Part shown: positions 47,333-64,000 of the stretch, in pieces
How the letters are laid out: every line of letters starts with the position of its first letter
Numbering within the stretch: position 1 is the stretch's first letter
Assembly: GCF_016772315.1 (NCBI RefSeq)
Contig: NZ_CP053482.1
Location: 1,736,001-1,800,000, forward strand
From: Thiothrix subterranea
GTDB taxonomy: Bacteria; Pseudomonadota; Gammaproteobacteria; Thiotrichales; Thiotrichaceae
Length of the DNA stretch: 64,000 nucleotides
Direction of reading: 5' to 3'
The notes under the pieces: generated by a model
Seen by the model: only the letters and a program-made list of their open reading frames with translations
Database searches by the model: none
What the model was told of the DNA's origin: nothing
Position numbers and translations under genes: made by a program

Positions 47333-47454
47333 CACAAACTCCGTCAAACAAGGAATACGGGTCGCCCCATTGCTGCACCCGCGAATAGGGGGAAGAGTGT
47401 AGCACCGTCAGTGATAGAGCAAAACATCGAGGTATGCAGCGATGAGTTGTAATC

Positions 47455-48886: not shown

Positions 48887-48896
48887 CGCTATTTAG

Positions 48897-48935
48897 GTCT
48901 ACATGAAGTTACGCTTAGTGTAGCTCAATGTAGAC
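48897..48935. promoter_or_regulatory. inverted repeat, candidate AbiEi operator
   Basis: GTCTACAT (48897-48904) and ATGTAGAC (48928-48935) are perfect inverted repeats 23 nt apart, all within the 49-bp gap before the abiEi start. The far arm touches the stop codon of the PT methyltransferase gene. AbiEi proteins bind paired inverted repeats in this position, so autoregulation is likely. Confidence 0.6.
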
Positions 48936-51014
48936 TTAACGAGGGCAATCAAGGGTTATTTCGCTGAATCTTTCCGCCGTCACCACTTTCGGCACGAGCC
49001 GCCCACTTTTCCCCGGTAACATCAGCACGATGGCGCGGCTGTTTGCATCGCTGTAGCTGACGTGTAGCGGTTTGTCGTTGCCGTAGAAATACAGGCGGTC
49101 AAACGGGGTGTTTTGCACGATCCATTGCGCGACTTCCAGCATGTTTTCGTCGGGGATGATGAAATCACAGGCTGCACCTTTGCGTTCGCAGATCAGGTTG
49201 CCACGGGTATTCACTTCATGGGCGGCGTGTTGGTCGCGTTTGGGGTCGATGCTGCCCTTGATGTGTTTGGCGAGTTCGGGGGAGCAGAAACCGTAGGTGA
49301 GTTCGATACCGCCAAAGTAATCCATTACCGGGTCGATAATGTGCAGGGCAAGCGCGGCGAGTGCGTTATAGGTGTCAGGCTGTTTGGGCAGGTTGGGTAA
49401 GCCGGTGTTGGCTTGGGTTGCGCCGCATTTGATGAAATCGCGGAAGGTGTGGTATTGACCGCAGGGGTCATCCAACGCGGGGGTGTGTTGCGCGGGTTGC
49501 AGTTCAAAGCCCACGACTGCCAAGCGTAAACGCTGCAAGGTGGCATCGAATTGTTCGGGGGGCATTCCGTAACCGTCTAAGGCAAATTCAGGGTGGGTTG
49601 CCAGCACCTGGTCAAAGGCGAGTTGTTCGGCGTAGTGCGGGAAATCGGGGGTGAGGAAACGCGCTTTCCGGTACAGGTAAGGCGGGGTGTAGGTATCGCC
49701 GTATTTGTAATACTCGAAACGCTGGTTGACCAGGCTGATTTTGATGCGTTCCAGCAAGCGCGGCAGGGGCGATTCTTCAAAGTCATCGTATTTCATTAAC
49801 GATAATTTGCCGGATTCGGCATGTATTTTCAGCAAATCGGCAGAAGTCACGTCACCGAAAACGAAGGTGGCGCAACCGATGTAGACCCGTAAAATCGGCG
49901 GCAATGCCACGACTTGCGCGGTGTGGAAGGTGAACGCGCCTTCTTCATCGAGATAGCCATAGCCTTGCGCGGCGGCGTGTTGGCACATTTGGCGCAGCAA
50001 CGCGGGGTTGCCCGCTGAGAATAACAGGCGTTCGCCGTCGGTTTGGGCGTGTTGATAGTTTTGGAAGAAAGCTTTGACATCGCGCTTGAGGCTTTCCGGT
50101 AAATGGCGGTAGATGCGTTGTTGGTCGAAACGGCGCATCGCAAAGTACACCGTGAGATCATCGCGGCGGCTGTCGAAGGCGAGTTTTAGCAGTTCATCAC
50201 CCTGGAAGCGTTGCAGGAATTTCAGGGCGCGTTGTGTTGTGCCGAATAGGTCTTTGCTGGCGGTAAGGTCGGGGAATTCGTCGTCTTGGGGCGGTCTGCC
50301 CAGTTCTAGCCAGCGTAGCCAGAGTGCATCCAATAAGGCTGCGTGTTGTTCGTAGAAGGCGCGTTCTTTGTCGGCTTTGGTGAGGCGGGCGGCGCGTTCG
50401 GCTTTGGGGGCTTTCGGCACTTTGGGTAATTGGCTGATCAGGCGGTTGGCGGTAGCGCGGTTGCGGTAGCGGCGTTCCAGAAATGCTTGTTCTGCGTCTT
50501 TGTCTTTGAATACGAAAAACACGCCGGGGCCGACGGCTACTGGGTCTTCATCGAGTACGTGGCGCAGGTATTCGCGGAATTCTTCTTGGGAATAATAGCG
50601 TTGGAAGGTGTTGCGGCTGGTGAGTACGCCATCACGGAACAAACGCCCGCGTTCGGGGGATTGTTCGCCGAGCATGACCGCCGCGCACAGGAATTGGGTG
50701 CAAAGTTGGTATGCGCCTAACACAGCTTCCATGCGTTCGGTTTTGTCTTCGATCACGTTGATGACGAAGCCGAGGTTGACAATATCGGCGGTGTGTTTGG
50801 GGTTTTCGGGGCAGAAGTGCGGATCCCAGCCGTTGGCGGTGAGGTTGTTTTGGCGCAGGATGTCTACGTCGCTGCCTTTGCCGCAACCGTAGTCGAAGAT
50901 GGTGTGTTTGCCTTCCAGAAAGTCATGCTTGGCGAGGAGTTGCATGGGTTTGGAGAGGGCGTAGCGGGTTAACGCGGTGCGGTGGCGTTCGACGTTGGAA
51001 GTCTTTTTTGTCAC
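48936..51014 (-). CDS. DNA phosphorothioation-associated putative methyltransferase (main body)
   Basis: This protein of about 692 aa matches the family named PT-associated putative methyltransferase, found in dnd/ssp islands. After HRTALTRYALSKPMQLL it has the AdoMet motif TIFDYGCGKGSDVDIL, then NGWDPHFCPENP, ADIVNLGFVINVIED and a long C-terminal part with LRVYIGCATFVFGDV. The reported start is GTG 51014. The frame is open upstream to a stop at 51240-51242, and the missing 5' part lies in another frame in the fragment 51026-51517. The actual substrate (DNA or other) is unknown. It is the last gene of the Ssp operon. Its composition is rich in G+C like the chromosome, unlike the A+T-rich genes before it. 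Confidence 0.82.
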   Translation of the reverse strand: MTKKTSNVERHRTALTRYALSKPMQLLAKHDFLEGKHTIFDYGCGKGSDVDILRQNNLTANGWDPHFCPENPKHTADIVNLGFVINVIEDKTERMEAVLGAYQLCTQFLCAAVMLGEQSPERGRLFRDGVLTSRNTFQRYYSQEEFREYLRHVLDEDPVAVGPGVFFVFKDKDAEQAFLERRYRNRATANRLISQLPKVPKAPKAERAARLTKADKERAFYEQHAALLDALWLRWLELGRPPQDDEFPDLTASKDLFGTTQRALKFLQRFQGDELLKLAFDSRRDDLTVYFAMRRFDQQRIYRHLPESLKRDVKAFFQNYQHAQTDGERLLFSAGNPALLRQMCQHAAAQGYGYLDEEGAFTFHTAQVVALPPILRVYIGCATFVFGDVTSADLLKIHAESGKLSLMKYDDFEESPLPRLLERIKISLVNQRFEYYKYGDTYTPPYLYRKARFLTPDFPHYAEQLAFDQVLATHPEFALDGYGMPPEQFDATLQRLRLAVVGFELQPAQHTPALDDPCGQYHTFRDFIKCGATQANTGLPNLPKQPDTYNALAALALHIIDPVMDYFGGIELTYGFCSPELAKHIKGSIDPKRDQHAAHEVNTRGNLICERKGAACDFIIPDENMLEVAQWIVQNTPFDRLYFYGNDKPLHVSYSDANSRAIVLMLPGKSGRLVPKVVTAERFSEITLDCPR

Positions 51015-51025
51015 TTCCGGTGGTT

Positions 51026-51517
51026 CTATTTCACTTCCGTCGAGTTTAACCAGTTTGTGATCGACGACTTTGTAACCTGCATTGCGGAGGCGTTCTTCCC
51101 ATTGTTTTTTATAGCCGATTTTGCGGGAGTCTTTGAAAAGTCCGGCATCTTCGAGTTGCTTGGTAAGCGCGGCGAATTTGGGAATGTCGGGGTGATCAGG
51201 GGGGAGAAGGAGTTCTTTGCGGTGGAGGATGGGGGGTTGTTACTACAACTATAGTCAGTCTTACGCGGATATGGGAAATCATTACCAGCTCGAATTGAGG
51301 TAAAAAGTTTTGGAAATGCTTCCTCACTTAAATTTTCATACTCTAAGAATGAAATATCTTTATCATAGCTATTAACACGAATTACATTGATTTTCAGCTT
51401 AACATCTTCGCTCAAATCATGGAAATATCGCTCAAATATATGTTTATGAAAGCTATTTAATTTATCTACGGAGACGATAGAAATATAAACATCATTTCCT
51501 ATTATTTTCCCCATCAT
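51026..51517 (-). pseudogene. frameshifted N-terminal part of the PT-associated methyltransferase
   Basis: The first 90 or so residues (MMGKIIGNDVYISIVSVDKL to RKTDYSCSNNPP) are A+T-rich and read as a real domain, but the rest of this frame has nonsense-like composition. At the C6 tract (51231-51236) the other minus frame continues as ILHRKELLLPPDHPD and then the methyltransferase. The joined sequence NPPILHRKE is a motif I recall from the N-terminal region of this family. One extra C would restore a single frame of about 860 aa (51517 to 48936). Sequencing error, a true mutation, or phase variation are all possible. Start 51517 is 6 bp after the previous stop. Confidence 0.7.
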
Positions 51518-51523
51518 AGATAG

Positions 51524-52180
51524 TTACTCAACATCTTGTATTAATTCGCTCAAAAGAATATCTCTAGCATTTCTACCCCAATCTATTCTTGCCTCTTCTA
51601 CTTTATTTTTTCTCATTCCTTCCGGCTGTTCGCTTTCATGTTTAGCCCAAGCTAAAATTATTAACTCAATAGTTTTACGTGCCATGAGATTACTTTCATG
51701 ATTTTCACTTTCCATTAAAGAAAATAGCAATTTATTTAAATCGGAAAACAACGGATGGTTTTCATTGAGAGAAATTTCAATAGTTTTTCCTTTCGCATAA
51801 ACATCAAAGAAAGCTGGACTTGTAGATGTCTTACTAGTAAAAATAAACTCGTCATTTCTCCCTATATATTTGGCTTTAATTGCACCACAGTTATTGCCAA
51901 TAACTTCTACAAAAGAAGTTCCAATAATATTTTCATTCTGTTCTATTTCAGACTCGTCAACTGACTTTAATTGATAAAAAAATGAAGATTTGTTGTAAGT
52001 TACATAACGACGACCTTCACTAAATAATACACTATTTACAAGCTTCTTTGGTGCATTAATGTTTTTCTTTTCTAATTGAGAAATAATCTGACGAGCAGTA
52101 TAGTTCTGCCCATCAGAAAGCACATCTAAAGCAGCTTCCAATATAATTTTCCTTACGTGCCACTCTTCTTTCAAGTACAT
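51524..52180 (-). CDS. Ssp-operon protein sharing the C-terminal domain of the MORC-like ATPase
   Basis: A 218-aa protein with no known name. Residues 1-70 look like a winged-helix domain (ILEAALDVLSDGQNYTARQI, VNSVLFSEGRRYVTY). From about 105 to the end it matches, nearly column for column, the C-terminus of the preceding ATPase: TSPAFFDVYAKGKTIEISLN, NHPLF, ELIILAWAKHESEQPEG, KVEEARIDWGRNARDILL. There is no catalytic motif I can name. The gene is very A+T-rich and lies 15 bp after the ATPase gene. It could be a DNA-binding adaptor for the helicase/ATPase module. That is inference from the shared domain. Confidence 0.7.
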   Translation of the reverse strand: MYLKEEWHVRKIILEAALDVLSDGQNYTARQIISQLEKKNINAPKKLVNSVLFSEGRRYVTYNKSSFFYQLKSVDESEIEQNENIIGTSFVEVIGNNCGAIKAKYIGRNDEFIFTSKTSTSPAFFDVYAKGKTIEISLNENHPLFSDLNKLLFSLMESENHESNLMARKTIELIILAWAKHESEQPEGMRKNKVEEARIDWGRNARDILLSELIQDVE

Positions 52181-52195
52181 CTGTCAATCTCTAAA

Positions 52196-53998
52196 TCATT
52201 CATCAACAAGAAATTCTCTAGCCATGCGTCCCCAATCCCAACGTGCCTCTTGAGCCTTAGTTCTTCTTTGACCATCAGGTTGTTCATCTTCATAACGCGC
52301 CCATGCCATCAGTAGTAATTCTAGCCCCTCACGAGCTTTCATTAATCGAGTACGCAATACGGATTCATTAGCCTCATCAATGTCATCCTGTAATAATTCA
52401 ATAAGATGATTGTATGCAGGATGATCAACATTCAATGACAATATGATTGCGCCACCACGAGATTGAACATCGAAAAAAGCAGGCGTACTTAAATTTGATT
52501 TAACAAAAGTATATTTTAAATTTTGTTTGACCGTTCTAGCTGCTAAGCTTTTAGCTACTTCTGTCGTTGCCCCTGCTTCTGTAAGTACATCAGCAATTTC
52601 TTTCTCACGCACATCAGGAGGTAGTGTTCTTTCTTGAGTGTCACTTTTTCCTTCATAGCCTTCGTTCTGACGTTTACGGGTTGCTTCAGTGCCTTTTTCT
52701 TCTGAATGAGGCGAGTCATGTCTCTTATTAGATTCGTTAGTCGTTGTTTGTGCTTTAATTAGCCGACGAATTGTACTAATATTTTTCCGTATATGCTGAG
52801 CTAACTCTATTAATGGCAATCTAGGATCTTCATTTTCATCTAAGTATTCTTTTGCTGAAGCAATTGTTTGGCCATCTTCAAGTAGAGACTCTAAATCAAC
52901 TTTGGCTAATTCAGAAAAATTACGAGCTGATTGTTTGTTATTAGTTACACCAAACAAATCATCTAATGCTGGTGGAAAATTCACTTCTACTCCCCACCAA
53001 CGATCACGGGGATCGGAGGGATCAGACCAAGATGTATCTAAATCAAGTTCACGATTTGCTCGCACAATAGATACGCCCAGATTTTTTGCAGCATGTTTGC
53101 CATAAGAGCGTGCACCGGGATTATGCCCTGTTCTTGCTGACTCCTTAGCGTAAGCAAACTTTACTGTAACAACATGAATACTATCATTGAAGTTGATTTC
53201 AAACTCTGTATTTTTAAAATCGCCATTTTCAAACATTGGTTCGTTATCAAATGGTTCTGGGCATGATGTTTTAGCAAATAAATATAAAGGATCATTTGGT
53301 AATGCGTTACGAGATGATACTTGACGAAGCATTGGCATCGCACTCATGTCAAATGATTTAAGCTTGATCACCACTGAGTCATCGACTAAAAAATAGCGAT
53401 ACATTCGTCCAATAATTAATTCTGAATTATCAATAATAGAGTTAGCAGTACGCCACATAATTTTGTCTATGTTCTTCCAAACAACAAGCGTTCCCGTCAT
53501 TCCAAAATTAGAACCGACTTCTTTCCATATATCTGGTATTTCCTTAATAATAGGTGTTGGCACGGATTTTAATTGTGATTTCTCAATTTCATCTATATCA
53601 AGATAGCTATAGATTGCATTTTCAGAACCATTTCTCCAACTCCAAACTTCTACTCTTCGTGCTTGAGATATTGATGAATTTGGTAATCCCATACCAAATC
53701 GTCCAATACCACTGAAATCATTTAAACGTGTTCCATTACCAAATTGGAGAGCCATTTGTAACACATCAGAAGTCATTCCGTGACCGTTGTCTAACACTGC
53801 TATTTCGCTTATACGTGCTCTTGCACGCTGTTTTAACTGTTCTATTCGTTCACCACATAAAAGCTCAACGATTGTTGCTCCTGCTTGAATAGAGTTATCC
53901 ATCAATTCAGCAATCGCATATGCCGCATTCTTGTATCCGTTGTCACGCATGGCATTGACAACAAGGTGTGTAGGAACTATGTCGTGAGTATTTTCCAT
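52196..53998 (-). CDS. GHKL (MORC/Hsp90-like) ATPase of the defence operon
   Basis: This 600-aa protein has a complete GHKL ATP-binding domain: N box AIAELMDNSIQAG (28-40), G1 box DNGHGM (70-75) and the lid GIGRFGMGLPNSS (97-109). It looks most like MORC/MutL-type ATPases that occur in restriction-like operons. A middle region (about 150-380) is probably the transducer domain. A charged low-complexity linker (about 425-465, with KRHDSPHSEEKG) leads to a C-terminal domain (about 485-600) with AREGLELLLMAWARYEDEQP, then EARWDWGRMAREFL. That domain recurs in the next gene. The chosen start MENTHDIV is two bases after the helicase stop. Likely role: ATP-driven DNA clamp with the helicase; not proven. 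Confidence 0.8.
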   Translation of the reverse strand: MENTHDIVPTHLVVNAMRDNGYKNAAYAIAELMDNSIQAGATIVELLCGERIEQLKQRARARISEIAVLDNGHGMTSDVLQMALQFGNGTRLNDFSGIGRFGMGLPNSSISQARRVEVWSWRNGSENAIYSYLDIDEIEKSQLKSVPTPIIKEIPDIWKEVGSNFGMTGTLVVWKNIDKIMWRTANSIIDNSELIIGRMYRYFLVDDSVVIKLKSFDMSAMPMLRQVSSRNALPNDPLYLFAKTSCPEPFDNEPMFENGDFKNTEFEINFNDSIHVVTVKFAYAKESARTGHNPGARSYGKHAAKNLGVSIVRANRELDLDTSWSDPSDPRDRWWGVEVNFPPALDDLFGVTNNKQSARNFSELAKVDLESLLEDGQTIASAKEYLDENEDPRLPLIELAQHIRKNISTIRRLIKAQTTTNESNKRHDSPHSEEKGTEATRKRQNEGYEGKSDTQERTLPPDVREKEIADVLTEAGATTEVAKSLAARTVKQNLKYTFVKSNLSTPAFFDVQSRGGAIILSLNVDHPAYNHLIELLQDDIDEANESVLRTRLMKAREGLELLLMAWARYEDEQPDGQRRTKAQEARWDWGRMAREFLVDE

Positions 53999-54000
53999 AT

Positions 54001-55626
54001 TTAAGCCCAAATATCTTCCCAATTATTAAATGCTTCGGCAACACTACCGAACCCCGGTAAACTATAGTCTATTACAGTTATGATTTCAGCCATTTCATTG
54101 CCACCCGCTTTTTCTCCTCTTATCGCTCTTCCTACCATTTGACTGTATAGAACAAGTGATTTAGTTGGTCTTGCAATTAGTGCGGCACTAATCTTAGGTG
54201 CATCAAATCCAGTGGTCAATACACCAAAATTGCAAATAATTTGTGTATCATCATTTTTTTCTTTGAACTTATTTATGATATTTTTTCTTAAGTTCGCATC
54301 TGTTTTTCCAGTAATTGAGTAAGCCCTATGCCCTCTTAACTGTAAAATTGCAGCTAAAAGATCAGAATGCTTCACTGTTGTTGAAAACACAATAATTCGC
54401 TGATGACTTTTTACCAAATTCTCAATTGAAGAAACAATTGCTAAATTTCGCTTTTCATCTTCAGCTAATCGATCTAAAATATTATCCGGCACATCAAAGT
54501 TTTCTTGAATTTTCCTTAGATCACTATCATTAAAATTAGTTCCGCCTTCATAAAAAAGAGGCTTATAAACTGCTTTTGCTAAGTATTTTTTTTCAACCAA
54601 ATAATCAACAGGATTGATATATCCTTCGATTTCCAAGGTAACTTTCTGCTTTGAAAAGAAATTTGATAATTGTTCGTCTATATGTATATCTGCCCATGTT
54701 CTTCCTGGAGTTGCAGTCAAACCTAAGAGTGCAGGATTAGGATGCCGCATAATAACTAATGCATCTAGGATTAACTTATAAGTTTCCGCAATCGCTGAAT
54801 GGGCTTCGTCAATAACAACTAATGATGTTCGACTAGATAAAGTAATGATAAAGTTTAAACTATTTTTTGTTGTACTATATACTTTAGATAACCCACCAAT
54901 AAGAATCCCATCTTTTACATCATTAAGATTAAGAGACCGATCTCCCCAATATCTGAAAATACCTACTGAACGATTGCCTAAACAGCCCCATGCTTTTTCA
55001 AATTCTGAAGCTGCTTGTTCACATAGTTCTTCACTATGAGCTAACCAAATAACTAATGTAGGTTCATTTTTTCGCAAGTGATCGGCAATTATACTCATTG
55101 CTGTACGTGTTTTTCCTGATCCCGTAGGCATATGTAATACAACTCTTTTTGTATTACTTTTAAGTAAATCATTTACTTTTCGAGATGCGGAGCGCTGATG
55201 TGGAAATAAAGAGTATTGTCCCTCCTTCTGAGAAAATGAGGATTTTTCCTCTTCTATAAAAGTAGTAGGCAAAGATATTTCAAAGAAGTCAAATACAGCT
55301 TTTTCTCTCTCAGAACCTTTTCTGATATTCACATTTTTTAGTGAGAAATATAAATCATTTTGACTGTAATCTAAACTTAGCACCTGAGCTAGGAGCTTTG
55401 CCTGATTATTTGGAAGCAAGTCAAACAATATTTCTCTTGTATCTTTTGATGATAGTAAAGAGTATGGAGTTCGGTAGTTTATTATTAATTTTCGTAGGTG
55501 TTGCGGCGTTGCAAGCTTTGAATCAAGTAGAAGGATTAAACGCATCAAGTCAGCACCTAACAAATATTGTAGTGCTGAATCGTCGGCTCTTGATAAAAGG
55601 TTGTCAAAATTCAACTTGGTCTCCAA
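54001..55626 (-). CDS. superfamily 2 DEAH helicase of the defence operon
   Basis: A 541-aa SF2 helicase/translocase. An N-terminal helical domain of about 130 residues (LLSRADDSALQYLLGADLMR) is of unknown family. The helicase core has LFPHQRSASRKVNDLL, Walker A HMPTGSGKTRT (about 165-175), LVIWLAHSEELCEQA, DEAH box VVIDEAHSAIAE, motif III LLGLTATPGRTWAD, and domain 2 with GFDAPKISAALIARPTKS and motif VI QMVGRAIRG. No nuclease domain is seen. It lies 14 bp after sspE and 2 bp before the GHKL ATPase gene. It probably unwinds or scans DNA together with the GHKL ATPase. Confidence 0.88.
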   Translation of the reverse strand: METKLNFDNLLSRADDSALQYLLGADLMRLILLLDSKLATPQHLRKLIINYRTPYSLLSSKDTREILFDLLPNNQAKLLAQVLSLDYSQNDLYFSLKNVNIRKGSEREKAVFDFFEISLPTTFIEEEKSSFSQKEGQYSLFPHQRSASRKVNDLLKSNTKRVVLHMPTGSGKTRTAMSIIADHLRKNEPTLVIWLAHSEELCEQAASEFEKAWGCLGNRSVGIFRYWGDRSLNLNDVKDGILIGGLSKVYSTTKNSLNFIITLSSRTSLVVIDEAHSAIAETYKLILDALVIMRHPNPALLGLTATPGRTWADIHIDEQLSNFFSKQKVTLEIEGYINPVDYLVEKKYLAKAVYKPLFYEGGTNFNDSDLRKIQENFDVPDNILDRLAEDEKRNLAIVSSIENLVKSHQRIIVFSTTVKHSDLLAAILQLRGHRAYSITGKTDANLRKNIINKFKEKNDDTQIICNFGVLTTGFDAPKISAALIARPTKSLVLYSQMVGRAIRGEKAGGNEMAEIITVIDYSLPGFGSVAEAFNNWEDIWA

Positions 55627-55640
55627 TATTTAATACAAAT

Positions 55641-57992
55641 TTACTCATTAATTTCTAGCCACTGAGACAACTCATGCCAAGCTAAGTGGCAGATATTTCT
55701 TCCTCTCTCTGTCACTATCTCAATATTCCAATCTTCTATATCTGTAATGGATGATATTAATGGCATGAATTTTCCATCTTCAATAGCTCTAATGGCAGCT
55801 TTAGATAATGGATATGGACTGTTTTTTGCTTTTTCAATAATACCAGCAATTTCTTTTTTATCTTCTTGAGAAAATGCGGTAAAAAAAAGCTTCTTTTGTA
55901 GCCAAGGCTTATTTCCAATGATAGCGTTTTCTAACTCTGGAAGTAGAATTAAATTCCCAATTGTATGAACGGTGTCAATATCATTGTATAACTCATCTCT
56001 CCATATACCCCTTCCATTTTGAGGTGCAATATGCTCAACAGTTTTATGAAGAGGATCGCGCCATTTTGATAATTCTAAAAAGTTGCAATTATCACGCCCT
56101 TCTTTTGTTAGAATATGTTTTTTTACTTTTCCTTCCACTGAATTATGAGCTGCCACTATTAATAAGAACTTACATAATGCTTTTGATTTGTCATATAGTG
56201 GTTGATTGATAACTTTGTTTGTCCAAGATTCTTTGTTGAGAACTTTATCTTGATTAGTTCCGAGTTTCGGAGAGTCTATGTAAGATAATAGATATTGATT
56301 AAGTTCTGCGGGCGAAGCTAATTCATTATTGCTCAACAACCCTAACTTAAGAGGCTTTGACGCAATTTTCTTATGTCCTTTTTTCATTAAATTTCTAAAA
56401 TCAGAATCAATACCTGCGGTACTTCCTGTTGCTGCTCTACGGATGACTAAGAATGCAGTAACTGATTTTACTACTTTAATAAAATCACTCCAACATTTAG
56501 ATTGTTCAGATGCAAAGTAATATCGTGCTAAAATTGGAATAGCTAGTGTTGTATTCATATCCTTAATAAAATTAAGACACAGTAATATTTTTTGCCGTTC
56601 AGGGTAATCAAGTATTTCTGGAAGTGCATTAGCAAGAGAGTGTTCTTCCCAAAAAATCCTCCTATAAAAAGCAATATCTTTTAATGATTTAACAAAATAT
56701 TCTTTTTTCTCATATAATTCATTATCTGAATGAATTAACGAATATTTACTTCTCAGATAACGACGCTGCCCACCTAAATCATAATTTTGAGTATCCCCAC
56801 CTATATATAGGGCAAATGATGTTATGATCTCTTTTGTTTCAACTTGCCTTATATCTTTCTGAGACTTTGAAATTTCTGCTTTTGATGACAAGCATTGATC
56901 AATTTCATCGAAAAATAATCTACTTCTTGAGTTGGAAAAGTCACCTGTTATATGTTTTCTGTCTTCTATGAATTTTATTACCTCAGGCTTGAATGTTTCT
57001 ATTGCCGTTAATGGTTCACCAGTAGTATTAAGCGCATCAAATATATCAAAAACATATTTATCATCCTCCACTTGAACACATGTAAGAGAAATATTATTTA
57101 AAAGATAGCTGGAAAAGAAAATAACCCTAGCTAATCCATCACTTAACTTGTTAAAGTTTTCTTTGTCAACATATAAACCATTGCCTTCAAGAATTTTTAT
57201 ATAATTATCATTATTGAAAAACTTCACTCTCGAAGGAAATATTTCCTCATCAGAATCATCAGTTAAAGCCTCGCCTTTTGAAATTCTGTCTATGAATTTA
57301 TCTATGTGTTTTATGGATTTTTTAAGAAATACTTGATCTTCGCTTTCACTCATTGTACTAAAACTATGAAATACAAAATCATTATATTCAAAATCACCTT
57401 GGGTGAAATCATAATAGTGCTTTCCAAAGTTAAACAAATATTCGGCAATAAATGACTCATACTTCTTTGAAGATGCATTATGTGCTCTAGTATCTACAGA
57501 CTCTCGTACCAATCGGGGATAAAATTCTGATAAATAATCTTTTATTCTAGTGCTATTTTTTCTGCCAACTATGCAACTTCTTAGAGAATCCAATAAGGAA
57601 TAAATATCTTGGCTTAAATCATCTTCTTCTTGTAAATTTAGCTCGTTTGATTCAAGCATTATTTTGTTCATTAATCGACAAATGATTAACGCAATTGTGC
57701 TGAGCCGTTGCTGACCATCTACAATAGATAAGGATATGCCTCCAAATTCTTTTTCCTTCTTTTCTTTATCGTTAGATAATATTATTGTTCCTATGAACCT
57801 GATTGAGCTATCTTCTTCAAGAAGAATAATGCCATGAAGGATTGATTCAAAAAGCCTAAAAATATTTTCATCATTCCAGCGATAACCACGCTGATAGATA
57901 GGTATTCTATAGCCCACGTTGCTATTGTGAAGCAAAAATGTATCCTGAATTGATAATGCTTCAGAAGTAAAAGTATCAGACACTTTTGGCAT
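55641..57992 (-). CDS. sspE: SspE-type PT-sensing restriction protein (DUF262-DUF1524)
   Basis: SspE is the effector of Ssp systems. It senses phosphorothioate on self DNA, hydrolyses NTP and nicks phage DNA. This 783-aa protein has the DUF262 domain with PIYQRGYRW (31-39) and DGQQR (92-96), the NTPase motif. DALNTTGEPLTAIETFKPEV is typical of DUF262/GmrS-like proteins. The C-terminal DUF1524 HNH-like domain has EHIAPQ (653-658), HTIGNLILLP, and ENAIIGNKPWLQKK. Length matches SspE. It follows sspD by 21 bp. A GmrSD-type modification-dependent enzyme is the alternative; the sspBCD context favours SspE. Confidence 0.88.
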   Translation of the reverse strand: MPKVSDTFTSEALSIQDTFLLHNSNVGYRIPIYQRGYRWNDENIFRLFESILHGIILLEEDSSIRFIGTIILSNDKEKKEKEFGGISLSIVDGQQRLSTIALIICRLMNKIMLESNELNLQEEDDLSQDIYSLLDSLRSCIVGRKNSTRIKDYLSEFYPRLVRESVDTRAHNASSKKYESFIAEYLFNFGKHYYDFTQGDFEYNDFVFHSFSTMSESEDQVFLKKSIKHIDKFIDRISKGEALTDDSDEEIFPSRVKFFNNDNYIKILEGNGLYVDKENFNKLSDGLARVIFFSSYLLNNISLTCVQVEDDKYVFDIFDALNTTGEPLTAIETFKPEVIKFIEDRKHITGDFSNSRSRLFFDEIDQCLSSKAEISKSQKDIRQVETKEIITSFALYIGGDTQNYDLGGQRRYLRSKYSLIHSDNELYEKKEYFVKSLKDIAFYRRIFWEEHSLANALPEILDYPERQKILLCLNFIKDMNTTLAIPILARYYFASEQSKCWSDFIKVVKSVTAFLVIRRAATGSTAGIDSDFRNLMKKGHKKIASKPLKLGLLSNNELASPAELNQYLLSYIDSPKLGTNQDKVLNKESWTNKVINQPLYDKSKALCKFLLIVAAHNSVEGKVKKHILTKEGRDNCNFLELSKWRDPLHKTVEHIAPQNGRGIWRDELYNDIDTVHTIGNLILLPELENAIIGNKPWLQKKLFFTAFSQEDKKEIAGIIEKAKNSPYPLSKAAIRAIEDGKFMPLISSITDIEDWNIEIVTERGRNICHLAWHELSQWLEINE

Positions 57993-58013
57993 ATATCTCT
58001 CTCTTAAAGATGC

Positions 58014-58841
58014 TCAAAGAGCGCAAATTGAACAAGCCTGATCTTCGGGATCATCATCTTCTTGATCTCTTAAAGCATCTTGCCACTTTATTGCATGAAC
58101 ACTCTTAGCATTACGGTTAGCTGTCCGTGTTCCTTCTGTTTTTTCTGCATGTGCTACCACCTCTTCAAGTGTCTTGCCTTGCACCCATGTATAACCTTGC
58201 CCTGACTCTTTCTCAATACGAACAGCTTCTGCAAAAAGATCAGGATGTTCGCGCTTTAATCCTAACCATTCATCTTGACGTTGGAAGAAGCAGAAGTAGC
58301 AACCTGAACGACTACGCCACCGATAATATTCTGGAATACCAACAGTATTTTCTAAAATGCGGAAAATATCTGACCGAATTAATCCATCTTCCATAAAAGG
58401 AAAAACTGCTTGAATATTTTCTTTCTGACTAACATAACCTTCTCTATTTTCATCTGCTCGAATGCCGATATAAGTTACAACCGGATCATTGCCAACAAAT
58501 TTTTCAAATGGCTTAATTTTCATCATTGACGTACACCAACGCTGCCGTGGTGACGGTAAATAATTGTTGTGTATTTTCAACCAATGCTCAAAATCTCGCT
58601 CAGGACTCAGTTTTTTAATTTCCTTACCTAAGTAAGCCTCAAGTTTATCAAGAAAATCATAGACCTCCTGAAGTTCAGCACCGGTATCAGTGAAGAAATA
58701 CTCTACGCGATTATGAATCTCTGGGTAGTGATCTCGAAGGTAAATGGCGAGCGCAGCACTATCCTTACCGCCAGACAATCCGAGGACGTGGCGTGAGCCT
58801 TCAAGTTCTGAAGCTTCTTGTAACGTCAAATGCTTAGTCAT
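58014..58841 (-). CDS. sspD: SspD / DndC-like PT sulfurtransferase
   Basis: SspD is an ATP-pyrophosphatase of the PAPS-reductase family that activates the DNA backbone for sulfur insertion. The 275-aa protein has the PP-loop LSGGKDSAALA (22-32), FFTDTGAELQEV, the cysteines of RWCTSMMKIKPFE and SGCYFCFFQRQDE, and a terminal CSICAL. The first three blocks match DndC, where the cysteines hold an iron-sulfur cluster. It overlaps sspC by 8 nt. The sulfur donor (SspA/DndA or IscS) is not in the window. Confidence 0.9.
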   Translation of the reverse strand: MTKHLTLQEASELEGSRHVLGLSGGKDSAALAIYLRDHYPEIHNRVEYFFTDTGAELQEVYDFLDKLEAYLGKEIKKLSPERDFEHWLKIHNNYLPSPRQRWCTSMMKIKPFEKFVGNDPVVTYIGIRADENREGYVSQKENIQAVFPFMEDGLIRSDIFRILENTVGIPEYYRWRSRSGCYFCFFQRQDEWLGLKREHPDLFAEAVRIEKESGQGYTWVQGKTLEEVVAHAEKTEGTRTANRNAKSVHAIKWQDALRDQEDDDPEDQACSICAL

Positions 58842-61800
58842 GTTTAACTTTACTCAATTGCTTGGGGGCAACTACTTTGGGGCGTTGAGTTGTCTGATAA
58901 TCACGCAAGAAATCATCCACTAATTCAGCTAATACTGCAAGTTGTAATTCTTTATCAGCACCGAATAGTTGATGATTTAATCGACTTTTTAGCTCATCTG
59001 TGGCTTCTCGCTGCATTTTACTAATTGCAACAGGCTGCTGACGCTCTTTGCCACCTTTTTTTATTGATTTCAACAAGATGACATCAAACTCATCTTGGCT
59101 GTTTTGTCTTTTTTGGTCATGAATGCGCAAAGCCTCAAGATCAAGCATACGCCGAGAATATTCATTCAATCGCATATCTGCTTGCGCCTTATCACCATCT
59201 AGCCATTTTTCCGGTGACTTCTTGCCAATGAACATTAAGATACTGATAAACCAATCATTATCATCTTTTTCCGTATTCGTCAGACGATTGATAAATGCTT
59301 TCAAACCATCGGTATCGACTGTGTACGCATCAAGTCCTAAGTAACGACCTGTGACGCGCCTCATCTCAGGGATCGTTGCATCAGGCTTGAGTCGTAGGGC
59401 TTGCGCTAAGAAACCTTGTTGCTGCTCCAACATTTTAGAGTAAGCATGTTTCAAAGTACTCAACGTATCTTTAAGCGAATCAACATAGCCATCAAACTTG
59501 CTTTGTTGATCAGGGCGAGTATCGAACCCTAACGCTTGTGGAATGCCCTCAAACAGCAGTTGCTCAGGTGACTTTGCAAGGTGAAAAGCATTACGGAATG
59601 CCTTTGCTTTCTCTGACAAGTCACTGGTTTTTTGTGTGTACTCATTAAGTCCACCCACAAACGTAGCCAATGGCTTGATTGCCTGTACCACCGATCGTTC
59701 TTTGCCATCATCACTGAACAATGCCGTCACGTATTGCTTAAAGATCGAGGCACGAATGCCCTCAACCCTGAACAACTGCACCTTGAACAGTTCCGGTGTT
59801 TTAACGAAGCGTTCCAACACTTCTTTTGCAAGCGTTGGTACATAGCGCCCCTCTTCATACAAAGCGAGTTCATCCTGATGGACAAGGTAAGCCGCCAAGT
59901 ACAACACGGGCAAAACGCCCTGTTTCAAGCCGTAAGGTGTTCTGGTCAGTTCGTTATTGAGGTCACTAAAAGCTCTAGCTTGCTGATCGGTGGAATCCAA
60001 AAATTCCTCAATCGCCGCCCACGTTCTATGCAAGCTGCTACCACTAGGGGGAGAGCGAAAATCCCATTTCCCTTGCTCATTCTGTTGATGAACGCCCGTT
60101 GCATGAAGTAAAGCAAGGTACATTGCCTTTTCAGGAGGGAATTTCTCGATACCTAAATATTCTTGATCTGAGTTAAACAACATCATCTCAAGCAAACGAT
60201 TACGTCCCGCTGCGGCTTGGCTCGATGGTTTGTCACGATTGATCAACTCATTCTTAATTTCAGGCATATAGCAATAGAGCTTGCCCAAAACATCGGATAA
60301 GGTACTTTGGAAAGCCTGTTTGCTCGCAATAGGTAATGGTTTTTTCTGCCAAAACCAATGGCTACGCTGTGGCTGTTCCAACAGTAAGTAAACTTGTGCC
60401 TCTTCTGCTTTCAATGCCAATTGGTAATAGTCACGAAATTCACGTTGAGCCACCGGATCAGAATGCAACTCTTGGGATTTGTTTTGGACGGCTTCCAATG
60501 CCAACACATCAGCAACCGCATCACGCAACGTTGCCGCATGAGGATAGTTCACCAACACATCTAACGGTGATGCGTTAGCCACCACTCGTTTAGTGAATGT
60601 CTCCTCATCTTGCCGATCTTCCGCAAGGTAGAAGACAATTCTAGGTGTGCTTGCACCTTCGTCCAACTTACCCAGTGAACCTGCATCAATGAATGCAGTG
60701 GTGAAATATTGCATCGAGCCTTTTTGAATGGAGAACTTACGTGCAACAATGGGCATATCGCCATGTTGCTTGCTTAAGCGTTCTGCCAAACTGAAGACAC
60801 CGAGCTTGCCACGTTCTTCTTGTAAACGTGCCTCAAGATCAAAATCACTGCCTTGCCAAACGCGGTATTCATTGTTGTATTTACGAAGCTGCAACACTGC
60901 CCGTTTTTGCAAAGTATCTAATGCAACGTCTACATCAGCAGAATCCTTCAAACATACTGCCAAAATATCTTTAGAAGCCTTTAATCCTGCTTGTGCACCA
61001 ATGAGATTTAGCAAGCCTACGGTTTTCAATATCTTCACTGCATCAGCATTATCATCACCTAAGCGTTCTAATGCTGTCACCACCTCAGCCCAACGCCGAT
61101 GCGTCAGATGATCAACAACCGCAGCAGGTTGATTACTGATGAAGTAATCGTAGATTTCCCATGGATAAATCCAATCACCCAATTGCTCTAAACGCTTGAG
61201 ACTGTCTTGAAAACCAAACGCCTCATGACTCCCCAAATAGTTAAACAAGGTGCGTTCATTTTGGGCTATTTTTTGGCATAGCAACGGCAACAACAAAGCA
61301 CTAACCGGATGTAGCGGGTAACATTGCTGGAATAATTGACTGGCAGAAGACTGATTCAATGCACTAGGTAGGGCATTGGTATCAGCTAACATTGCCGCTA
61401 GTTGATCAGCCTCAATCGCAATATTTTTAGGTAGCTTTTTCGGTTGCTCAATAGCTTTACCGACAATTCGCAAGGTTTGTTCTGCCGATTCCAAAAAAGG
61501 AATGACCTCAAAACGCCCTTGTACTTTTGCCCATTCGTTTTGTTGAGTCCGCCCTAGTCCTCGTGCGTATTGTTCAAAGGATTGATGCAACAGTACGAAA
61601 ATAGACAGAATTGCACCATCTTCCCGTTCACATCCTTTGTAGGCGTGTTCTGCCAATGCCTGCAACAGATGAATATCATTAGCTTCAGGGTGACGAGCTT
61701 CATACTCAAGAAATTTACCCAATTCATCAATGACAATCAGCAAACCATAGCCATTATCAACAGCAATGGCTTCTTGTAATTGACTAACAACATCAATAAT

Positions 61801-62313
61801 TTGTGTGACGGTAATAATATCCTGTGAAGTCAATTGCCTGATTTGCTCAAGCACCAAGGGGAATCGACGCTGTTCACGAGAAAAGAATGCAGTTGCTCCA
61901 TCAAGCAATGCCGTAGCTAATCGCTTACTCAAAGGTTCGGGACTACCTGTCAAAAAGACCCTACAATGTTCTAAGGGCTGCCCGTCCCCATCCCAAAACT
62001 GATCAATGACTTGCTCATCACACTTTGCTAACACGTTTTGTGCTGTATCCGTTGCGACATCATCCGCCGCACCTAACAAATGGGAAAGAAAAACAGCAAA
62101 GGACGATTTTCCAGAACCGTATGGCCCCATTAACGTCCACGCACGCGGCATACTGCTTACTGTTGTAATCGTATCGCCTATACGTGCCAACGTATCTAAA
62201 GCGCGGGTTGTGGGAATATATGCCTTTACGACAGCGACGGAATCAGCGTCACGTTCGAGGTTAATGGATCGCGTGTAGTTGATATTTACCTGTATTTTTT
62301 CAACCAAGCTCAT
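58834..62313 (-). CDS. sspC: SspC-type large P-loop ATPase
   Basis: This 1159-aa protein is the large ATPase of the SspBCD phosphorothioation machinery. An N-terminal region (NINYTRSINLERD) leads to Walker A TLMGPYGSGKSSFAVFLSHL (about 60-79). A Walker B-like strand LLIVIDELGKFLEYEARHPE is near 190-210. The rest is a long mostly helical body without recognisable catalytic motifs, and it ends basic (TTQRPKVVAPKQLSKVKHD). It overlaps sspB by 4 nt and sspD by 8 nt. A BrxC/PglY-type ATPase would be an alternative, but the DUF4007 and DndC-like neighbours identify it as SspC. Confidence 0.85.
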   Translation of the reverse strand: MSLVEKIQVNINYTRSINLERDADSVAVVKAYIPTTRALDTLARIGDTITTVSSMPRAWTLMGPYGSGKSSFAVFLSHLLGAADDVATDTAQNVLAKCDEQVIDQFWDGDGQPLEHCRVFLTGSPEPLSKRLATALLDGATAFFSREQRRFPLVLEQIRQLTSQDIITVTQIIDVVSQLQEAIAVDNGYGLLIVIDELGKFLEYEARHPEANDIHLLQALAEHAYKGCEREDGAILSIFVLLHQSFEQYARGLGRTQQNEWAKVQGRFEVIPFLESAEQTLRIVGKAIEQPKKLPKNIAIEADQLAAMLADTNALPSALNQSSASQLFQQCYPLHPVSALLLPLLCQKIAQNERTLFNYLGSHEAFGFQDSLKRLEQLGDWIYPWEIYDYFISNQPAAVVDHLTHRRWAEVVTALERLGDDNADAVKILKTVGLLNLIGAQAGLKASKDILAVCLKDSADVDVALDTLQKRAVLQLRKYNNEYRVWQGSDFDLEARLQEERGKLGVFSLAERLSKQHGDMPIVARKFSIQKGSMQYFTTAFIDAGSLGKLDEGASTPRIVFYLAEDRQDEETFTKRVVANASPLDVLVNYPHAATLRDAVADVLALEAVQNKSQELHSDPVAQREFRDYYQLALKAEEAQVYLLLEQPQRSHWFWQKKPLPIASKQAFQSTLSDVLGKLYCYMPEIKNELINRDKPSSQAAAGRNRLLEMMLFNSDQEYLGIEKFPPEKAMYLALLHATGVHQQNEQGKWDFRSPPSGSSLHRTWAAIEEFLDSTDQQARAFSDLNNELTRTPYGLKQGVLPVLYLAAYLVHQDELALYEEGRYVPTLAKEVLERFVKTPELFKVQLFRVEGIRASIFKQYVTALFSDDGKERSVVQAIKPLATFVGGLNEYTQKTSDLSEKAKAFRNAFHLAKSPEQLLFEGIPQALGFDTRPDQQSKFDGYVDSLKDTLSTLKHAYSKMLEQQQGFLAQALRLKPDATIPEMRRVTGRYLGLDAYTVDTDGLKAFINRLTNTEKDDNDWFISILMFIGKKSPEKWLDGDKAQADMRLNEYSRRMLDLEALRIHDQKRQNSQDEFDVILLKSIKKGGKERQQPVAISKMQREATDELKSRLNHQLFGADKELQLAVLAELVDDFLRDYQTTQRPKVVAPKQLSKVKHD

Positions 62314-63245
62314 GCTGCTGCCTCATAAATATTGTATTGTGCATAGTATTCTTTCAAGAAAATCATAGGATCAATGATTATATCCTGTGTTTTGTAAAGC
62401 CGATTCACACCTGCACTTTCACTGAAATAAAATACATTATTTTTCCGTTGTTTTAATTGTTCTAATTTGAATAGAAAAGCATTCTCAGTCAGGCAAAAAA
62501 CTGCACCTGGTGCAGGATAATCGCTTTTGCCGTACATCAAATCTTCAATAGCTAAAGAGGTTTGCTTAGTGGCATTGAAAAGTGAAGCAACCGCATAAGC
62601 CACTATTTCAATGGGTAGATGATCTTGCTCCCCAATTTGAACTTTGTGAGTTTTACCATCAGGCAATAGAGAAAGCAGTTTAAGCGTCGTAAAGGGTGCA
62701 TCCAGCAATTCATCCGACACCTGCTTTGTCTTGCTAGGACGAGCATCCGAATACATCCGCAAAGTGACAACGGCATCGTTCTTCAGGGTATTTTTAGAGT
62801 ATTTTCCGCTTGCCTGTTGCTTCAAAAAGTCTGCTAAGGCTTCGGTTGCCTCCGCTGTCGTAAACTCAGGCTTGTGGTAACGATTGAACAACCAATAGGA
62901 ACAGGTCGCCACTTCGGGATTACTTGCCATCTGCCAATGAAGCAGCCAAATTGTTGCCTCATCTTCCAGATACGGGTCACAACCTGCATTCTCATCAAAA
63001 ATGAAGTCACCTAACGGCGTAGGTCGATAACCATCCTCACATTTTTCAAGAATCTGTGCTGCTTGCGCCCAATAGCGAATAGCATTCACCATATTCTTAC
63101 CAACGCCAAGCCTGACCGTTGCATCATCAGCGTCAAACACGCCAGCATCATTCTTCACTTCTTGATAGGCTTTCGTTAGCCAGCTATAGCGCATTGAAAA
63201 TGTTTCATGCCTGCCAAAAGCCACTCTTTTAGGATTAAATTTCAT
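62310..63245 (-). CDS. sspB: SspB (DUF4007), PT-system nickase
   Basis: This 311-aa DUF4007 protein corresponds to SspB, described as the DNA nickase that opens the strand for sulfur insertion. The N-terminus KRVAFGRHETFSMRYSWLTK is the family hallmark, followed by VRLGVGKNMVNAIRYWAQAA (a helix-turn-helix-like region). GYRPTPLGDFIFDENAGCDP then DEATIWLLHWQMASNPEVAT also match. The C-terminal part is helical. Its ATG overlaps the stop of the preceding small gene (ATGA). Order sspB-sspC-sspD is the usual one. Confidence 0.9.
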   Translation of the reverse strand: MKFNPKRVAFGRHETFSMRYSWLTKAYQEVKNDAGVFDADDATVRLGVGKNMVNAIRYWAQAAQILEKCEDGYRPTPLGDFIFDENAGCDPYLEDEATIWLLHWQMASNPEVATCSYWLFNRYHKPEFTTAEATEALADFLKQQASGKYSKNTLKNDAVVTLRMYSDARPSKTKQVSDELLDAPFTTLKLLSLLPDGKTHKVQIGEQDHLPIEIVAYAVASLFNATKQTSLAIEDLMYGKSDYPAPGAVFCLTENAFLFKLEQLKQRKNNVFYFSESAGVNRLYKTQDIIIDPMIFLKEYYAQYNIYEAAA

Positions 63246-63457
63246 GCAGATATTCGCTTTTCATTTACTTTTTCTTCTGGAATGACGGGTGTAGCCAGTG
63301 ATAACGTAAGCTGTTGCCTGCCTTTAAGGAAAGACTCGACATTTTCCAAAAACCAGCTTTTCAAACTGACATTATTCATCATAAGCTGTTCATATAGTTC
63401 TTGTTTTGTTTCTGGATTTATTTCAATGACAATCCTGCCACTCACACCTCTTGCCAT
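63242..63457 (-). CDS. small ribbon-helix-helix-like protein, first gene of the Ssp operon
   Basis: This is a protein of 71 aa from the chosen ATG (MARGVSGR). It has one strand (GRIVIEI) then two helices (NPETKQELYEQLMMNN and VSLKSWFLENVESFLKG). This is the spacing of Arc/MetJ/CopG ribbon-helix-helix proteins. A polar tail follows. GGAG lies 9 nt before the ATG; earlier starts at 63472 and 63493 are in frame. It overlaps sspB by 4 nt, so it is translated together with the PT genes. It probably binds the divergent promoter and sets expression, but no homolog with known function comes to mind. Confidence 0.6.
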   Translation of the reverse strand: MARGVSGRIVIEINPETKQELYEQLMMNNVSLKSWFLENVESFLKGRQQLTLSLATPVIPEEKVNEKRISA

Positions 63458-63498
63458 ACTATTTTGCTCCATTGGCACTATGTCACATAACACGTTTA

Positions 63499-63528
63499 GT
63501 GTAACATTACACAGATAACAGTAACATT
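63499..63528. promoter_or_regulatory. candidate operator in the divergent Ssp/endonuclease promoter region
   Basis: A 14-bp palindrome GTGTAA-CA-TTACAC lies at 63499-63512. The octamer GTAACATT occurs inside it (63501) and again at 63521, exactly 20 bp apart, about two helical turns. This fits paired sites for a ribbon-helix-helix dimer. It lies between the starts of the divergent genes. Confidence 0.5.
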
Positions 63529-63577
63529 CAAATTAGCTGTTTTTTTAACAAAAAATAAACCTTAAAAAGTGAAGCTA

Positions 63578-64000
63578 ATGATTCCACAAAGATTTCTCAA
63601 CTACGTTTCCGACATGAATACATGGTACGCCGATGGACGACGCGAACCACAAAAGCCACTTCTACTATTGCTGGCATTAGCACGGGTACAAGCCGGAAAA
63701 CCCCGCCTAATGGCTTTCGATGAAATCGAGGAAAAGCTGCAACAAGTCATTGAAGACTTCGGCCCCAACCGTCCACCTCATCCAGAATACCCTTTTTGGC
63801 ACTTACACTCAGAAAAAATCTGGGAAATTCCGCAAAGTCACACCGTCCCCACCACAAAATCCGGCAGTGCCAGCAGAAAATACCTCCGCGACCACAAAAT
63901 ACAAGGTGGCTTTAGCATGGAAGCATTTGACTTGCTCACCGCTGATCCTGAACTGCTGGAACAGGCGGCAATGATCTTGCTAGACGACAACTATCCCTCC
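63578..64000 (+). CDS. PT-dependent restriction endonuclease, sulfur-binding domain (partial)
   Basis: The first 141 residues of a protein that continues beyond the window. It reads like the sulfur-binding domain (SBD) of ScoMcrA-type enzymes, which recognise phosphorothioated DNA: YADGRREPQKPLLLLLALAR, the helix DEIEEKLQQVIEDFG, then PPHPEYPFWHLHSEKIWEI, and LRDHKIQGGFS. The Arg/Pro/Tyr-rich blocks are the ones that surround the sulfur pocket in this family. An HNH nuclease domain should follow past 64000. ATG at 63578; ribosome-binding site weak. It is divergent from the Ssp operon with a 120-bp gap. Confidence 0.8.
   Translation, partial: MIPQRFLNYVSDMNTWYADGRREPQKPLLLLLALARVQAGKPRLMAFDEIEEKLQQVIEDFGPNRPPHPEYPFWHLHSEKIWEIPQSHTVPTTKSGSASRKYLRDHKIQGGFSMEAFDLLTADPELLEQAAMILLDDNYPS

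Follow-up and report, generated by a model that had tools for sequence, protein, structure and literature searches.

In a 64,000-nucleotide (nt) stretch of the Thiothrix subterranea genome (contig NZ_CP053482.1, positions 1736001-1800000; genome size 4.08 Mb), referred to here as the window, an Ssp DNA phosphorothioation locus carries three further genes between sspE and a phosphorothioate (PT)-associated methyltransferase gene, whose products are a helicase of the SF2 type, a GHKL ATPase resembling MORC and MutL, and a 218-amino acid (aa) protein, p218. The helicase and GHKL genes recur together beside sspBCD in nine named phyla, and the set of helicase, GHKL ATPase, and nuclease is reasonably likely to be an additional restriction module for the Ssp system. 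It probably uses the PT mark to distinguish phage DNA from the cell's own. In the window the helicase gene is adjacent to the GHKL gene, both are linked to sspBCD, and the nuclease within 5 kb is SspE, not a PLD enzyme.

The recurrence of the module was surveyed from its ATPase. A tblastn search of plasmids with the GHKL protein hit 51 records, of which 18 reached 80% coverage or more, and 8 of the 18 were examined. Helicase-GHKL-PLD genes lie with sspBCD genes in view in seven of the eight (sspB, sspC, and sspD all in view in five), and the eighth locus, L019, has a helicase-GHKL pair with an SspFGH cassette (SspF, 786.9 bits; SspH, 2426.9 bits). An alignment of the plasmid proteins searched against a one-genome-per-species collection gave 351 pattern matches and 234 relatives, and the best 80 of the 234, together with the eight plasmid loci (88 in all) and the window, make up 89 GHKL loci; examined loci are labeled with L-numbers. 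Many are cut by contig ends, and all were annotated with custom hidden Markov models (HMMs). A helicase is seen in 86 of the 89, and at least one of SspB, SspC, and SspD in 72, or in 55 of the 61 loci (window included) that have at least 5 kb on both sides. DUF4007, the domain of SspB, is rare in the background (13/369 genomes of the class and 11/398 of the phylum), so the linkage is far above what is expected, and this rules out the helicase, GHKL, and p218 genes as chance neighbors of sspBCD. The 72 Ssp-linked loci comprise Cyanobacteriota (18), Pseudomonadota (18), Actinomycetota (8), Bacteroidota (7), Chloroflexota (4), Bacillota (4), Acidobacteriota (1), Armatimonadota (1), and Myxococcota (1), nine loci without assignment (eight plasmids and one metagenome-assembled genome), and the window; one of them (L019) has an SspFGH-type FtsK gene in its stretch. 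A preliminary description of the window had treated helicase, ATPase, and p218 as extras inserted in one genome, and had made its reading depend on whether the inserted genes co-occur with ssp loci elsewhere. The genes are present and the linkage holds (72/89), but the supposed local add-on is a recurrent module, usually with a PLD nuclease.

A reverse survey was centered on 20 DUF4007 loci from the class and phylum samples, own genome excluded, and used the HMMs of the first survey, to which PbeA/C and SspF/G/H seeds were added. The centers are 10 of 15 class matches (the window locus and four further matches, weak or second ones, being left out) and 10 of 11 phylum matches; one locus, L124, is a 10-kb contig. 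Helicase-GHKL-PLD is found in five (L125, L180, L183, L184, and L185, the helicase of L184 being found in its extension, L188), an SspFGH-type set in seven, SspE in two (L129 and L182), PbeA/C in one (L178), and none of these is recognized in five (L121, L123, L124, L128, and L179). PADLOC support for the SspFGH-type sets is strong in L120, L122, L181, L186, and L187 and partial in L126 and L127/L157 (SspF, 90.0 and 108.7 bits), and the large L157 protein scores 195.8 bits with DndH versus 80.7 bits with SspH. In this small sample the module is seen roughly as often as the known Ssp partners.

The nuclease of the module is exchangeable. Within 5 kb of the GHKL gene, and with our own cut-offs of 150 (PLD), 500 (HNH), and 350 bits (SspE), the 89 loci have PLD (59), HNH (9), SspE (5), PLD and HNH (1), PLD and SspE (1; L064), or none of these (14). 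The SspE-only loci are the window, L028, L038, L070, and L092, and PADLOC labels the nucleases of the last four and of L064 as SspE. Under or outside the cut-offs are SspE matches in L015, L061, and L066 (the last being PADLOC 'Orf5', not SspE), HNH matches in L018 and L072, and, more than 5 kb off, an additional HNH in L012. The pattern HxK...GSxN is present in 61/61 scored PLD open reading frames (ORFs), and Pfam assigns two sampled PLDs to PLDc_2 and the sampled Nostoc enzyme to HNH_4. PLD and HNH are both absent in 5/6 SspE loci versus 4/66 other Ssp loci (Fisher P = 5e-5, ignoring kinship), and the SspE label changes at least four times on starred branches of the GHKL tree. The sequences of L028 (SspE) and L036 (HNH) are 94.5% identical as far as the end of sspD, then lose all similarity, and come back to 96.1% identity at about codon 183 of the helicase ORF; the HNH gene of L036 stands in place of both the SspE region and the helicase N terminus of L028. 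HNH genes lie upstream of the helicase and PLD genes downstream of the GHKL gene, and in L070 and L092 SspE is downstream of GHKL, facing sspDCB, like the PLD in L059, L060, and L062. In the nine HNH-only cyanobacterial loci (L026, L030, L031, L032, L035, L036, L039, L041, and L045) the helicase ORF starts after Walker A, and in L031 it is in two pieces. DndB/DGQHR-like proteins are coded in 11/72 Ssp loci (L012, L014, L034, L040, L016, and others), and several cyanobacteria have their genes placed after sspD and before the helicase gene.

The window's sspE (55641-57992, minus strand) codes for a DUF262 GTPase with an HNH nuclease (GmrSD_N and GmrSD_C; PADLOC SspE, 632.4 bits). The protein has the DGQQR motif and can be aligned over almost its whole length with the Escherichia coli SspE structure (20yv), and the residues aligned with Y63 (PT sensing), R133 (GTPase), and N724 (catalytic) are identical, 3/3. 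The gene lies between sspD and the helicase gene, a place taken by HNH or SspE in Nostoc loci, and there is no PLD after GHKL; a PLD model search gave no match in the window genome or in the two congeners that bear the module, and 3/3 control genomes were positive. It is plausible that SspE is the module's nuclease in the window, and this is the weakest step of the interpretation.

A series of observations weighs against joining SspE, the helicase, and the GHKL ATPase in one module. A congener locus (L154, genome G382) has sspBCD, sspE, and the methyltransferase gene without the module, so that within the same genus SspE is independent of the extra genes (the L154 SspE is 35% and its SspD 97% identical to those of the window), and the available text of PMC13251355 has SspE working without a helicase-GHKL module and stimulated by PT. 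Between the window and the module-bearing congener loci L150 and L151, dS (synonymous divergence) is 1.8 to 2.0 for sspE versus 0.06 to 0.33 for the helicase and GHKL genes, so that sspE recombines separately from the other two. SspE and PLD meet in L064, and below the cut-offs there are a 198-aa true SspE piece in L061 (truncated at the edge of the locus, on the other strand, and over 9 kb off) and, next to the PLD of L015, a 620-aa frame resembling SspE; with the weaker cases counted, PLD and HNH are both absent in 5/8 SspE loci versus 4/64 others (P = 4e-4, ignoring kinship). A tree-aware test yields five independent pairs, opposite in 3.7 on average and running the same way in 0 (P = 0.125); the trend agrees, yet a P value below 0.05 is out of reach with five pairs. 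Nuclease position also varies, in that SspE precedes the helicase gene in four loci (the window, L028, L038, and L064) and follows GHKL in L070 and L092, and in a tree of 10 SspE sequences those of the module are not one clade, the solo L154 SspE grouping with that of L070. The helicase ORF lacks Walker A in 9/9 HNH-only loci. Ten of the 89 GHKL loci have neither sspBCD nor a recognized nuclease, five of these (Chloroflexi) are the nearest kin of the window GHKL in the tree, and DUF4007 was not found in eight of the nine genomes searched among these ten (several of them drafts), the ninth, L049, having one. The solitary helicase-GHKL pairs without a recognized nuclease or DUF4007 match are L020-L023 and L054, and L037, L043, and L050.

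Some of these points would suit two stacked, independent defenses that share one PT mark, with a canonical SspE beside a helicase-GHKL-p218 set acting without a nuclease of its own, for example as a replication-blocking clamp or translocase. This arrangement is unlikely, if the most serious of the alternatives: the solitary pairs of Chloroflexi and Microcoleus, the occurrence of SspE both apart from the module (L154) and together with PLD (L064, L061, and L015), the unequal divergence of sspE and the helicase and GHKL genes, and the additive effects of SspE and SspFGH in one cell (as given in the available text of PMC8092258) are all consistent with it, but SspE loci mostly lack PLD and HNH, with or without the weaker cases, and SspE takes the PLD position in L070 and L092, both of which argue against it.

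The helicase gene (54001-55614, minus strand, with another TTG start at 55626) codes for an SF2 (DEAH) protein with ResIII/DEAD/Helicase_C matches, and both Walker A (GSGKT) and IDEAH are present; domain-library searches found no PLD domain in it. Its best PADLOC match is PbeA (106.8 bits, helicase part only), and its best NCBIfam match is RadD (140.5 bits, below the cut-off of 720). The GHKL ATPase gene (52196-53998, minus strand; HATPase_c_3) codes for a protein with a conserved C-terminal domain, and the N-box, DNGxGM, and GxGxFGxG patterns are all present in 80/89 GHKL proteins, including that of the window. A profile search with the window protein matches human MORC2, and its fold model (pLDDT, 84.6), which is of the GHKL+S5 type, matches MutL (top; 1b63, E = 1.2e-10), SMCHD1, and MORC4 in Foldseek, placing it in the GHKL/MORC-MutL superfamily. 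MutL, SMCHD1, and MORC are ATPases that close on DNA. Viral contigs searched with the GHKL protein gave four pattern matches and no relative. The RadD and MutL matches would accord with a repair pair (RadD-like plus MutL-like) that shields the host from nuclease nicks and does not attack phage, but the pair usually has a PLD nuclease of its own and is often the sole recognized sspBCD effector, as expected of a restriction module, and a repair role is improbable.

The p218 gene (51524-52180, minus strand) codes for an N terminus without assignment and a copy of the GHKL C-terminal domain, with no family match in domain and family model searches; the C termini of p218 and the neighboring GHKL protein are 41% identical, so the earlier label of a shared-domain protein is right. 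The N terminus had been considered as a small DNA-binding domain, which is unsupported, the fold model being poor (pLDDT, 42.6). A p218 search of 369 class genomes found the window genome alone, and a later search brought up two congeners, in which the counterparts are 223-aa open frames. Small p218-like proteins ending in a GHKL C-terminal domain are also coded in L061 (11813-12406), L068 (11694-12395), and L079 (11820-12323), two Mycobacterium loci and one Clostridiales locus, between GHKL and PLD.

A mechanism can be proposed in which SspB, SspC, and SspD, by homology and with a cysteine desulfurase presumably encoded elsewhere, would place PT on one DNA strand, and exchangeable restriction machinery, here SspE with the helicase, GHKL ATPase, and p218, occupies the space between sspD and the methyltransferase gene. 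A GHKL dimer would close on DNA as an ATP-driven clamp and engage the helicase, which would then translocate along or unwind the DNA, and p218 may pair with the C-terminal domain of the clamp or compete for it. The associated nuclease (PLD or HNH elsewhere and most likely SspE here) would cut DNA whose PT state is foreign; the sequence data show the gene content, the linkage to sspBCD, the exchange of the nuclease, the intact catalytic motifs of the window, and purifying selection, from which complex formation, the direction of PT control, and the choice of SspE as the partner are inferred. The combination of a clamp, a translocase, and a nuclease that can be exchanged, in which PT would mark self, is drawn by analogy with the proposal of Iyer et al. 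(2008) that MORC and paraMORC proteins loop DNA for helicase-nuclease partners in restriction-modification (R-M) operons (available text of PMC2292703). More tentatively, the SF2 helicase and MORC-like clamp might be a general chassis for sspBCD immunity into which PLD, HNH, or SspE nucleases are plugged, ranking among the commonest Ssp partners and explaining a good share of orphan sspBCD loci, and in this genus sharing SspE as the cutter with p218 as an adaptor.

Within the genus, the methyltransferase is matched in 17/57 genomes searched (own included, and some with fragments only), and full-length GHKL and p218 are present in three of the 57, the window genome, G390 (L150), and G396 (L151), a fourth having a partial match. 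L151 matches the window at 83.6% over 49000-63559 and has an open methyltransferase gene; L150 matches at 97.0% up to 55369, inside the helicase gene, and at 77.7% beyond. At about 9100-11470 in L150 the helicase gene is split by an oppositely oriented 434-aa ORF of higher GC content that might be an insertion element. The eight genes tested are under purifying selection, with ratios of nonsynonymous to synonymous divergence (dN/dS) of 0.03 to 0.12 against L151 (0.06 to 0.12 for helicase, GHKL, and p218; p218, 0.12, and 0.23 against L150), values that are rough, having been obtained by simple counting with several dS above 1. A nonworking remnant of a PLD-type module after nuclease loss, as might be thought from the lack of a PLD match in the genome, the frameshifted downstream methyltransferase gene, and the interrupted helicase of L150, is very improbable given the intact window ORFs and motifs, these dN/dS ratios, and the same PLD-less set kept in L151.

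Other congeners and relatives have different genes in the same space. In L155 (genome G388), sspBCD has 90.6% DNA identity to the window, and after sspD come PbeA (617.9 bits) and PbeC (157.9 bits). PbeA and PbeC are directly downstream of sspBCD both there (10871-15312) and in L178 (14330-18801), an apparent SspBCD-Pbe pairing. L157, of another genus in the same family, has an SspFGH-like set between sspD and the methyltransferase gene. The space thus holds four effector sets, SspE alone, SspE with helicase, GHKL, and p218, PbeA/C, and an SspFGH-like set.

The window genes form a run on the minus strand in one direction, sspB, sspC, sspD, sspE, helicase, GHKL, p218, and the methyltransferase ORFs, with gaps between neighbors of -8 to +26 nt. 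The gene sspB (62310-63245; Pfam DUF4007, E = 3.5e-80; PADLOC SspB, 290.7 bits) codes for a protein matching the solved SspB structures 6juf/6lb9 (E = 8.2e-30), sspC (58834-62313; PADLOC SspC, 1507.6 bits, and BrxC, 490.2 bits) for a large BrxC-related P-loop ATPase, and sspD (58014-58841; Pfam PAPS_reduct, E = 1.5e-12; PADLOC SspD, 356.9 bits) for a PAPS-reductase/DndC-like sulfurtransferase, and these constitute an SspBCD modification module in a single operon. The GC content at third codon positions is 0.22 to 0.26 from sspE through p218 and into the 5' part of the methyltransferase gene, 0.30 to 0.40 for sspBCD, and 0.62 for the 3' part of the methyltransferase gene. No Aminotran_5 match indicating a cysteine desulfurase of the SspA/IscS type is present in the window or up to contig position 1,816,000; the genome has 11 Aminotran_5 (cysteine-desulfurase type) matches, all elsewhere, the best at 310.9 and 297.8 bits and not typed as IscS. 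HMM searches with Pfam and PADLOC thus bear out each of the sspB, sspC, sspD, and sspE assignments of the preliminary description, as well as its helicase, MORC-like ATPase, and small protein between SspE and the methyltransferase, all on the minus strand. Its term 'complete' for the Ssp island is somewhat generous, as the locus has no local sspA and a frameshifted methyltransferase gene.

The methyltransferase gene is present as a 5' part (a 163-aa ORF at 51026-51517, minus strand) and a 3' part (48936-51239, minus strand; TIGR04096, 489.1 bits). The start had been placed at 51014, but the 3' frame is open from 51239, where the conserved motif PPILHRKEL is found, making the two ORFs one frameshifted gene. 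The L150 gene is a single open frame of 860 aa, and its DNA aligns unbroken across both ORFs (97.0%, window 48966-55369), the frame change sitting in a C-rich tract near 51.24 kb; the 163-aa ORF also has weak protein similarity to the N terminus of distant intact methyltransferases (best E = 0.00045), and the L150 alignment and these distant copies rule it out as a separate small protein. Open copies in six congeners are 860 to 881 aa with 84 to 97% identity. GC content is 0.307 over 51251-51517 versus 0.552 in the 3' part, with the jump approximately at the frameshift, and all frames were used as sequenced with no repair or joining. In L152, L153, and L159, where the neighboring genes look putatively Dnd-like, homology to the window methyltransferase ends at 51233, so that the ~90 codons at its start may be particular to the PT system.

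Downstream of the methyltransferase gene is an AbiEi/AbiEii pair (47455-48886), as previously proposed, and both proteins are above model cut-offs (AbiEi, 194.6 bits, NCBIfam cut-off 150; AbiEii, 104 bits, Pfam cut-off 22.5). The DNA on the AbiE side and past the methyltransferase end is also in L159 (97.1%, 47451-51233) and L158 (97.6%, 47451-50408), both without sspBCD in view, so the AbiE pair goes with the methyltransferase end and not with the Ssp genes. At the other end, a divergent gene beside sspB (63569-64060, plus strand, running past the window end at 64000), which the preliminary description had overlooked, codes for a 163-aa protein matching the first half of NF045808, a PT-DNA restriction enzyme family (positions 5-155 of 284; 135.8 bits, below the cut-off of 180). 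This protein, which is without the nuclease half, could possibly be a PT reader. Similar copies are present beside sspB in L150, L154, and L155. SspF-like proteins in L126 (9304-11679) and L127 (5621-8038), which belong to two divergent SspFGH-like cassettes, share a segment with the window's sulfur-binding-type protein (E ~1e-15 to 1e-14), and this similarity suggests that they may read PT.

The module may also account for some sspBCD loci that seem to be without a cutting partner. The available text of PMC8092258 counts 2,678 sspBCD strains, 199 with sspE, 196 with sspFGH, 36 more with both, and 2,211 with neither, and names further restriction partners as one possible reason for partnerless loci. 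The presence of helicase-GHKL-PLD in 5/20 DUF4007 loci versus SspE in 2/20 bears on this puzzle, and if the module restricts phage it would fill part of the 2,211/2,678 gap, bring a MORC/MutL-type ATPase into PT immunity, and show exchange of restriction machinery beside one modification system. No description of a helicase-GHKL module with Ssp, and no paper combining 'phosphorothioation' and 'GHKL', was found in the open-licence PubMed Central literature (subscription papers and preprints being outside this scope), and PMC10853773 and PMC12839542, which discuss PT and BREX-type systems, carry no MORC or GHKL term in their main texts. A prior description of the module is possible. The earlier suggestion that the helicase, ATPase, and small protein are new to described Ssp systems agrees with this literature, and the SspFGH, Pbe, and MZA models fail to identify them, as detailed below.

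Among known systems, MZA shares a GHKL N-terminal domain with the window ATPase, in MzaB, but the ATPase is not MzaB, matching over residues 19-144 only (52.3 bits; NCBIfam, 65.9 bits versus a cut-off of 850). DndCDEA-PbeABCD (PMC6459918) shares an SF2 helicase, a PLD domain, and an ATPase paired with PT, but PbeABCD has its PLD fused to the helicase and a DndD-like ABC protein as its ATPase (available text of PMC10853773), whereas in the module the PLD is separate or absent and the ATPase is GHKL. PbeABCD is also rejected for the window in that its helicase matches PbeA positions 239-629 only and has no PLD, and as a positive control PbeA (over 600 bits) and PbeC are recognized in L155 and L178. 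SspABCD-SspFGH, which damages non-PT DNA, likewise has a multigene effector beside sspBCD, but one with a Walker A protein and an FtsK-like SspH (available text of PMC8092258). The PADLOC matches listed at E = 0.01 for the helicase (its best 25 of 45), the GHKL ATPase, and p218 include no SspF, SspG, or SspH, and the same models recognize SspF at 496 to 787 bits in L019, L181, L186, and L187 and SspH at over 2000 bits in L019, L120, and L122. The MORC/paraMORC restriction operons described in 2008 share a GHKL+S5-type ATPase beside an SF2 helicase and a nuclease as R-M operon parts, and they are tied to methylases and endonucleases, with no 'phosphorothio' term in the available text of PMC2292703; this comparison with paraMORC1-5 is by description. 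Like SspABCD-SspE, the window has sspB, sspC, sspD, and an SspE in which the three published PT-sensing and catalytic residues are conserved; unlike it, the window has no local sspA and adds the helicase, GHKL ATPase, and p218 genes between sspE and the methyltransferase gene.

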